Source: Rhea pennata
Taxonomy: Eukaryota > Chordata > Aves > Rheiformes > Rheidae
DNA length: 64,000 nt
NCBI RefSeq assembly: GCF_028389875.1
Contig: NC_084687.1
Location: 5,616,157 to 5,680,156, forward strand
Direction of reading: 5' to 3'
Part shown: one piece after another, positions 11,293-15,170 of the stretch
Layout: the number at the start of each line of letters is the position of its first letter
How positions within the stretch are numbered: position 1 is the stretch's first letter
The notes under the pieces: generated by a model
The model's database searches: none
What the model was told of the DNA's origin: nothing
The model's input: the letters and a program-made list of their open reading frames with translations, nothing else
Translations under genes and position numbers: made by a program

Positions 11293-11470
11293 TTAACTCC
11301 TGCTGCCACCCCAAACTGTCCAGTGGCTGCGCTGCTGGCCACGGTGAATCTTCACGTGTTTTGCTAAGTGGTCACTGCGGGCAAACTTCTTCTCGCAGGT
11401 GGCACATTGGTAAGGCTTGACACCGGAGTGGGAACGCTTGTGACGGGACAGTTCGTCTGATCGAGAAAAC
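11293..11470 (-). CDS. KLF15-like terminal coding exon (second half of finger 2, finger 3, C-terminus)
   Basis: The exon starts after the acceptor TTCTCCTGCAG at 11471 and completes R319. It reads [14 protein letters not shown], then the SGVKPYQC linker and third finger [21 protein letters not shown], then a 16-residue tail ending in GGSRS before the stop at 11293-11295. An intron inside the second finger is the usual KLF arrangement. The DNA-contact positions RSDEL and RSDHL are those expected of KLF/Sp proteins, so the binding specificity should be GC-box-like. Confidence 0.93.
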
Positions 11471-14400
11471 CTGCAGGAGAAGGGAAGCATGGTGGATCCA
11501 GCATTCGCTGACAGACAGCACAGGAAACACAAGGACCCTAGCAACTGGGAGGCTGAGGTGCATCTCTGCCACAGACTCTTGATTTGACCCTGGGTGAGTT
11601 ACTTTTCTTCTGCTCTATCCAATCTAAGAGCAAGGCACACAGGTACGCCAGGCTCCTGCTCGAGGCAATGGAAAGAAATACACACCTCCAAGGGGAATTC
11701 AGAGATGGGGGAAAAGAATTCACTCATTGAGGTCTTCAGGTCTTTACACTGATCTTAAAGGACAGTGTTCACCTACTTCCTTCCTTCCTTCCCCCAAAAA
11801 CCTCTTTTGGGGGCATCAGCCCAGACTGGCAGTAGCTACAGGGCGTAAAGGCTTTACTGTCACTTTGCATATCCAGCCAGGAAGGGAATCACTGCTGAGA
11901 GAAGGCTTGTTTTTCCTGAGAGAGCACTGGTTCTACTTGCAAACTGTGAGCATCCCTTTGTTTCTCAGCGTGGCAGAGATTTCTCACTGTCAGCCAGGGC
12001 TGGTTGAAGAGAGAGAGGCAGTCTGTGAGCTGACTTAAACACCAAGCACAAAGGAGGAAAAGTGAATGCAGCCAGCCTCCAGCAGAGGAGCAGAGGTTTC
12101 CATGCAGAAGCAAGCTAACTACTGTTCTGAGGATGCAGTAACAAGGGCCACATAGATACCCGAAGTGTTCATGCTGCTTGTCTGTGTAATTCACACACCT
12201 GGAGCAGATCAGCTGAACAGCCTGGAAAATCCCTTTAACCACATGCATGTCCCCACTTAAATCTCCTACCCTATCTTCTACTTGGTACAAACAAATCCAC
12301 ACCTGGGCGGACCTGCAGCAAGTGAGCAAGTTGATCTGAGCTTTTAAGAGTGCCGCCTCAAATGGTCCCAGTATCACAAGGCCTGGGAGCTGCTGCGACT
12401 TTAGCGTGCTTTGCACGTCTGAGTATCCAGGGAATGTTGGAGAGGAGGACTGGGTAGTATTTATCCCAGTTCTGCCTCTAAGGAGCCAACACAGATGGAA
12501 AGGTTTTTCGATCTGGCTGAAACATGCATATGCAAGGCACTTCAGATATAACCCCAGTCTTCTAGCAATAGGATTTCAAGTTCACACCTGATATAGTAAA
12601 CACTGCGCCTACTCAAAAAAGGCTTTGTGAAAAGTAAACGTGTCCCAAGGCCATCTTTGGATCTTCCATAAGAAACACTGACTTCTCTCCAGCTTTGCTG
12701 TAAGAAAAGAGTTACAAGGTCTCTGCTCCTCACAGTAAAGAGAGCAAGGGGAAATGACATACAAATTTACAGTTGGAGCCCCATCTAGAGAAGGGAGCAC
12801 AGTCTTGGGAACCTCATCTGCAGCTGTGTATGCTGCTAACCGTATAACTGCTCCCACGGAGGGGGAGGGCAGGGCAATATGTGAGGCAGAGCACAGTAAT
12901 TCAGCCGACAGCCTGCAGGCTGGGTCGGTCCCTCTTACAGGGTGCTGTGGTACCCGCAAGCACCATCCCCCCCTGCCCTCCCAGAGAAAAAAGCTGTTCA
13001 GGCTGACTGCTGGGCTGGGATCAGATGGAGGAAAAGGCAGGTGGCCAGGTAGGGAGCAGGGCTGATGCTCGTGCAGTTGCCATGCTCCCTTTCTTCCATC
13101 CCTGGACTTCTCAGTCAGGTGCAGCAGGATATGTTCAGCAGCACTGGTTGGTATCAGAAAAGGATCTGATGCTTATAGACATCTGCTGCAGGGGTAGGTG
13201 AAACAGGGGCACAACTGCTGATGGCAAAGGAACAGCAGCCTGGCAAGAGACAGTCCCAAAATTCAGATTTAGTCTCACACCTTCTGAAGTTTCACTACCC
13301 CAGGACAGAAGCTATAACGCACCATCTGGGTAAACACAGCAGCAAGCGTATGCCAAAGCATTGCATAAGAGACCAGGAGAGCTCAGCACTGCCAGCACCA
13401 GCTTTCTTTGTGATACGCTTTGAGATCTGCTGATGAAAGGTGCTACACAAGACCTGAGGACTATTAACCCCTCTTGCCAAAGGCTGCACTGAGGATCCTG
13501 CCCCCAGGACAGGTATGCAGTACCAGGAAGAGAACACCAAAGCATAAAAAATTCAGAGAAGCGTAGTAAGACTGATTAAGAAGCAGAATTACTTCAGGGA
13601 CTGGAGACAAAAGAAAAGAACGACCATCACCATGTACAGAGCAAACAGAAGTAGAGCAACATGGATAAATGCTATAGGCCCATAGGTATCTGAAGGATAT
13701 GAGCAACTAGGGCAAGCAAACAGCAAGAGAAAGTAAAGTTATGCTAAATGTACACAGAACTATGTAATGGCTCCTCAGGAAGCAGCAAATTCCTATTATC
13801 TAGGACAAATATTAACAGAAAAAGCCATTTTTGTAGCCCAACTACAGAAACTGTCCTGAAATAGCCAAAGAAAGAGTGCAAAGCCCTAAATTACTTGGGA
13901 AGAGCTGGATTGCCAGAGGGTATTTAGGCATCCAGTTCATTTTTCAAGGGAGACTTCTGAATGTTCGGTAGAGGGTCAGATGTGCTTCTCTAGCTGGAGT
14001 TGTTCAACACTTCAGATTAAGTGAAAACTACCCAAGCTGTCTCAAAAAACTTTTCTCCTCCAGTCCTCCTTATAGCTCTCATCTCTAAATCATTTGGTAA
14101 AGAAAATTTTAGCCTGGATTTTCACTAGATGAAAGCTCTCCTGAATCCTGACAAGCAACGAGAGACCTTTGGCAGGGCCACCCGCTCGCACGGAGGCCTG
14201 TGGCTTCTACTTACCGCCAGCCACAGTTGGGCCAAGCACAAGTGTAGGGTTTCTCCCCAGTGTGCCGCCGGAAGTGAGCCTTGAGGTGGGAACTCTTGGT
14301 GTACATCTTGCCGCAGCCTGGGTGCGTGCACTTGTGGACGCGGACGAGGGAAGGGGAGGCTTTTTGAAACTTGGGGGTTACCTCCACTTCCTGCATGTTT

Positions 14401-15170
14401 CCTGGAGTCCTTGGTTGCAGGGCAGCTGGCAGGGGAGCAATTTTGACATACTTTTGGTCTAAGATGGGCACGGGAGGCTGGACCTGAGGAAGGAGGGCCA
14501 GACTTTGGCCCTGCAAGCTGATAACCAACTGGGCCACTCTGACACTACCTGTAGCACTTTGTACTAATGAGCTCCCACTGTCCACCTGGAGAGGCTGGAT
14601 TTGGAAGATAACAGGAATGTTTCCAGCAGCTACTGCCTGACTACTACCATCAGTTGTCCCTCCAGACAGGGCAGCATTCAACATGTCTCCTTCTTTAACT
14701 ATCCTGGACACAGGCTGCTCCCCAGAAGTGCCTAAGCTGATCTTGGATTTGATCTCAAGCTTCCCTCCAGGCAGGAGATGCTCTTTTGCTTCATCTTTGA
14801 GAAACTCAGCCTTCTCCCTCAGGAACTCCTCAATCTCCTCCAGGGTGGGAATAAAGTCCTGGGAAAGACTGCTGCAGAAGTCAGGCAGCTTGAGCTGAGA
14901 CTCACAGACAGTGACTTGGGGTTTTGCATCCTCCCCCTTTGCCTGGGACAGGTGGAGGGAGGTGCCTTCAGAGTGGTTGATGCTGCCTGGAAGGAGATGG
15001 CCAGAGCCTTCTGGGTGGCTAGAGGCCCTCTCACTGCCAGGCCTTGGCAGAAGGGATGGTGGCATGTTGCTCTGTAGAGCACTGGCAAAGCTCTCTAGCT
15101 GTGGGGAGCTGGCTGAGCCGGTCAAGGAACCTGAAGAGGTTAGCAGCTCTTTGCAACTCACAGAGATCAT
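11293..15170 (-). CDS. KLF15-like Krueppel-like zinc-finger transcription factor (two coding exons)
   Basis: The coding sequence joins 15170-14215 to 11470-11293 and gives 377 residues. The donor CG|GTAAGT and acceptor CTCCTGCAG|G split an Arg codon (R319) inside the second zinc finger. Three C2H2 fingers close the protein: C281-H303, C311-H333 and C341-H361, with the KLF-type linkers TGEKPY and SGVKPY. Upstream lie KLF15 signatures: [11 protein letters not shown] at 107-117, [20 protein letters not shown] at 209-228 and KYVKIAPLP at 240-248. From family knowledge, KLFs are nuclear factors binding GC/CACCC boxes, and human KLF15 (416 aa) regulates metabolic genes. The start is the first in-frame ATG after a TGA in the same exon. 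The N-terminus lacks the segment that opens human KLF15, and the C-terminal tail after the last His is unrelated to KLF15's. I infer a KLF15 paralogue rather than KLF15 itself, because it neighbours SLC45A3. Family assignment is secure; orthology is not. Confidence 0.93.
11536..11640. mobile_element. MIR-like SINE relic
   Basis: Within the KLF15-like intron, the stretch with CTTGATTTGACCCTGGGTGA and GTTACTTTTCTTCTGC resembles the MIR core (not-able-to-lose phrase 'tgaccttgggcaagttactt'). It is diverged and incomplete, recognised by eye only. Confidence 0.5.
13408..13460. mobile_element. Tail of an ancient amniote SINE/LINE (L2- or MIR-type)
   Basis: GATACGCTTTGAGATCTGCT followed by GATGAAAGGTGCTACACAAG resembles a 3'-tail motif shared by many old amniote retroposons. 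Only the tail is clear. Confidence 0.45.

Follow-up and report, generated by a model that had tools for sequence, protein, structure and literature searches.

Gene Structure and Genomic Neighborhood

The window, a 64-kb stretch at C25:5616157-5680156 of a 1.27 Gb genome in 180 contigs, carries a KLF15-type gene on its minus strand. Its two coding exons (15170-14215 and 11470-11293 in window coordinates) encode 377 aa in an intact frame, while each of the remaining two frames of the coding sequence contains 15 stops. Coding exon 1 (14215..15170) extends from the ATG at 15170 to the middle of finger 2, covering residues 1-318 plus two bases of codon 319, and the last coding exon (11293..11470, stop included) supplies the remainder of finger 2, finger 3 and the tail. 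The phase 2 intron that separates them on the same strand (11471..14214) lies within finger 2 and has canonical GT/AG ends, with CG preceding GTAAGT at the donor and CTGCAG preceding G at the acceptor. This is a real gene with canonical splice sites. A 377-residue protein with KLF15 blocks and three fingers had been proposed in the preliminary description; the coordinates were recovered exactly, as were the blocks and, in three C-terminal stretches, zf-C2H2 matches above the Pfam cut-off.

An in-frame stop at about 15210-15212 means that coding begins at 15170. The minus-strand segment 15171..15277 is a candidate for the untranslated (5′ UTR) start of coding exon 1, an assignment that requires the TTCACTTGCAG acceptor before 15277. 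Further upstream on this strand, a CpG island at 19321..19940 is a candidate promoter, and a non-coding first exon there is plausible, with a candidate GTAAGT donor at 19258 that was read by eye. A short open stretch of the minus strand at ~19260-19360, on the edge of the CpG island, ends at a GTAAGT donor and is exon-like. The open stretch near 19,300 was dropped as an N-terminal coding exon because the phase of its donor misfits the KLF frame (acceptors were inspected by eye). At the 3′ end of the gene, an AATAAA on the minus strand (10568..10573) is the sole poly(A)-type signal between 9501 and the stop codon.

The upstream neighbor, SLC45A3 (24798..31961, minus strand), was identified through four collinear matches to the human protein, at 31961-31788 (49/58 residues identical), 31529-30693 (190/283), 29214-28909 (73/104) and 25244-24798 (85/152). 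It ends ~9.6 kb before the ATG of the window gene. The collinear matches and the shared strand bear out the original placement of a KLF15-type gene directly downstream of SLC45A3. ELK4 was not found inside the 64-kb window; a location there was rejected because the match falls outside, ~21 kb past the stop codon of the window gene at window coordinates -9611 to -14907. Over the window and 100 kb on each side, every match is on the minus strand, and the genes follow one another as SLC41A1-RAB29-NUCKS1-SLC45A3-window gene-ELK4, with SLC41A1 ~91 kb from the window gene. We take human 1q32 to have the order SLC41A1-RAB29-NUCKS1-SLC45A3-ELK4, so that C25 would present the same order plus one inserted gene. 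The human SLC45A3-ELK4 interval is not known to contain a KLF, and the locus is presumably the source of the SLC45A3-ELK4 read-through.

Two further CpG islands, at 49861-50820 and 40861-41440, are found 5′ of SLC45A3, and one of them may be its non-coding first exon or promoter. CpG-rich stretches at 4101-4560 and 21-860 fall between the window gene and ELK4; a gene was identified in neither. When ten window ORFs were compared with Pfam, two of the four from SLC45A3 gave MFS-type matches, and the ORFs other than SLC45A3 gave one weak Pex16 match, below cut-off. Simple repeats in the window include a run of 44 T (5119-5162), (CA)16 at 19141-19172 and (GT)14 at 60676-60703, and a single CA/GT pair accounts for all repeats of at least 45 bases. 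Rfam returned 0 matches over the window, and none of six CR1-end-like patterns sought in it was present. A search for relatives in viral contigs and genome contigs confirmed none.

Membership in the KLF15 Subfamily

The window protein belongs to the KLF/SP family. Its fingers have KLF spacing, with a TGEKPY-type linker and an HSGVKPYQC linker, and comparison with solved structures matched 212 sequences, KLF4, KLF5, KLF10 and KLF15 among them. All human comparisons rest on a working set of reference sequences, whose KLF15 is consistent with the published length of 416 aa and the published finger positions, 321-404 (PMC12102667). In ungapped comparison with 18 human KLF/SP1 finger regions, the window fingers are identical to those of KLF15 at 71/86 residues and to the other 17 at 56/86 or fewer. 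A tree of the fingers groups the window protein with KLF15 at 85/73, which is under the tool's star level.

Ahead of the fingers, the protein contains KLF15 regulatory blocks that align to KLF15: a 10-residue block at residue 108, a 19-residue block at 212 and KYVKIAPLP at 240. The 10-residue acidic block is identical to that of KLF15, and the patterns IPVxxQIQP, VAQLxxxxQGQxxALxPQ and KxVxIAPxP are shared, as is the HSGVKPYQC linker. Judged by its nearest fingers, this linker and the KLF15-only blocks, the protein is a member of the KLF15 subfamily. Unlike KLF15, however, it has neither the MVDHLLP nor the SEDDSD block at its N-terminus, and the RSSRSVRSVN-type C-terminal tail is not kept.

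A Canonical KLF15 in the Same Genome

A canonical KLF15 is found on contig C12, with exons at 12075722-12076764 and from 12082977. Its 403-aa product begins with MVDHLLP and shares 232/364 and 54/56 residues with human KLF15. The intron of this gene is phase 2 and interrupts the same finger 2 residue as that of the window gene. A protein search of the whole genome yielded 156 matches; among the matches listed, only those on C25 and C12 align before query residue 247, the remaining ones covering the finger region. The case of a single KLF15-family gene in this genome, raised in the preliminary description as a possible outcome, is thereby excluded.

Full-length identity is 285/401 between C12 and human KLF15, 159/361 between the window protein and C12, and 151/362 between the window protein and human KLF15. 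In the fingers, C12 and human are identical at 83/86 residues, whereas the window protein matches either of them at 71/86. With its full N-terminus and orthologue-level fingers, the C12 gene leaves the window gene, on these comparisons, outside the role of KLF15 orthologue. The KLF15-only blocks of the window protein could be expected of KLF15 itself relocated to the window, but the canonical gene on C12, with these two properties, indicates that KLF15 has not moved, and we assign relocation a negligible probability. Of the two origins first envisaged, a moved KLF15 thus falls, and a duplicate stands, with the neighboring genes favoring an ohnologue.

Whereas KLF15 is on C12 here, on chr12 in chicken and, as we assume, at 3q21 in human, the window gene adjoins SLC45A3. 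The chicken location is given by two surveys, one of which places no KLF outside its ten listed chromosomes (PMC10177326, PMC11394431), so the window gene may not be common to all birds. In one of these surveys the number of KLF members is 15 in the methods but 14 in the results, and chicken KLF15 is listed with 14 exons and a length of 463 aa (PMC11394431).

Origin of the Window Gene

On C12, KLF15 is followed after 154 kb by the start of an SLC41A3-type gene, which has the same orientation. Neither SLC41A3 nor ALDH1L1 was found within C12:12068100-12157600, as the SLC41A3-type gene lies further on; a third SLC41A gene is on C1. Both KLF15-type genes consequently have an SLC41A paralogue within ~160 kb, as expected of ohnologues, and paralogues of KLF15 neighbors do occur near the window gene. 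The relative order of KLF15 and SLC41A3 on C12 differs from that of the window gene and SLC41A1 on C25. A plexin probe, which cannot tell subtypes, placed 18/18 of its matches on C1, C12 and C25. We take human 1q32 and 3q21 to belong to one set of 2R paralogous regions. Such 2R-derived regions have been described in human, chicken and gar, with the plexin-A, ATP2B and SRGAP families among the neighbors (PMC3826523).

The phase 2 intron shared in finger 2 makes copying via spliced RNA unlikely. The window gene was rejected as a retrocopy or long-dead pseudogene, the intron and frame being kept. Between the window and C12 fingers, codon positions 1, 2 and 3 are identical at 67/86, 78/86 and 28/86 codons, respectively, and shared fourfold sites are identical at 5/24 in the fingers and at 20/62 over the whole alignment. 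Silent sites near chance, in combination with a protein that has been held, point to long purifying selection. The distance between the window and KLF15 fingers falls in the range seen among nine human KLF paralogue pairs (68-81/86). The shortened N-terminus and changed tail could also mark a copy in decay or already silent, whose open frame would no longer belong to a working gene. Against this are the 377 open codons, the canonical splice sites and the finger codons, kept at positions 1 and 2 and not at position 3, a pattern of long-standing selection that leaves room for very recent silencing at most; we consider a silent copy very improbable.

The branching order of the three proteins is less clear-cut. 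Maximum likelihood (ML) trees with finger-only outgroups united C12 and human KLF15 to the exclusion of the window protein with a support of 71/27, and in these same weak trees a forced pairing of the window protein with C12 was not rejected (AU p 0.337). A position of the window protein inside the KLF15 orthologue clade, also considered at the outset, is opposed by the finger identities, but the trees, at this support and p value, are too weak to decide it. Among 359 gap-free columns of the window, C12 and human proteins, 138 agree across the three proteins, 66 are different in each and 121 differ in the window protein only, a class that can be explained by fast evolution alone. The window protein shares 21 columns with C12 only versus 13 with human only (p 0.23), a slight and non-significant lean to a bird-side origin.

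Such an origin would involve duplication of KLF15 within the bird or sauropsid lineage, by segmental copy or translocation, followed by fast evolution, and human would never have had the gene. The excess of columns shared with C12 and the unrejected pairing are in keeping with this scenario. However, the excess is not significant, the fourfold sites shared in the fingers are at chance, and the presence nearby of SLC41A1, a paralogue of the KLF15 neighbor SLC41A3, is unexpected of a random insertion. We regard a lineage-specific duplicate as unlikely. The window gene is a KLF15 paralogue and, with high probability, the second KLF15 ohnologue: it would have arisen in the early vertebrate genome duplications and been kept in this bird-like lineage, and mammals would have lost it from between SLC45A3 and ELK4.

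Predicted Function

The finger helices KSSHLKA and RSDELSR are as in KLF15, and the third, RSDHLAK, differs from the RSDHLSK of KLF15 by one residue. From what is known of the KLF family, helices this similar should recognize GC/CACCC-type boxes in common with KLF15, and the window protein would be a nuclear transcription factor acting on them. It would recruit the transcription machinery via its partly kept KLF15 regulatory blocks, among them the acidic 10-residue block and an LP(D/E)F core, in which LPDF is aligned to LPEF of the human KLF15 9aaTAD. That 9aaTAD has been reported at residues 118-126 (PMC12102667). This predicted mode of action, with the same boxes and KLF15-type recruitment, is somewhat favored by the sequence. 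With MVDHLLP and SEDDSD missing and the tail different, the protein is expected to share KLF15 sites or to compete for them, its partners or expression being unlike those of KLF15.

Taken as a whole, the account that we consider probable is that of a KLF15 ohnologue, intact and under selection between SLC45A3 and ELK4, that was lost in mammals and overlooked by KLF catalogues, including the two chicken surveys, and that reads KLF15 boxes with a changed N-terminus and tail. KLF15 acts in fasting metabolism and in muscle, heart and kidney programmes, and it is commonly regarded as a single gene outside fish. If the account is true, KLF15 biology in this lineage is split over two genes, the vertebrate KLF set gains a member, and mammals offer a clean example of a lost ohnologue. 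It also suggests that KLF surveys seeded from mammals can miss genes that mammals have lost.

Comparison with Known KLF15 Genes and Ohnologues

The human KLF set has been given as KLF1-KLF17 plus KLF18 (PMC3820594). The search of open-access literature turned up no paper describing a second KLF15, either in birds or beside SLC45A3; the gene may well already carry an automatic KLF15-like annotation in databases. KLF15-type copies beyond those of mammals are described in fish, where the extra klf15 loci are parallels to the window gene at the level of published description. In pikeperch and zebrafish, si:ch211-117k10.3 is labeled “klf15/klf15l”, and KLF15_N domains occur at three klf15 loci of pikeperch (PMC12673963). 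Zebrafish KLF15a and KLF15b have been ascribed to the teleost duplication (PMC3820594), and klf15a, klf15b and klf15d are described in salmon (PMC12609175).

A second parallel is provided by the “elusive” ohnologues of the FoxG2 type (PMC5901865), a report in whose text KLF15 has 0 occurrences. As described there, these genes are defined by absence from mammals and birds, whereas the window gene is present in a bird. In other respects the window gene would be like them: a faster-evolving ohnologue of a well-kept gene, lost in some amniotes.
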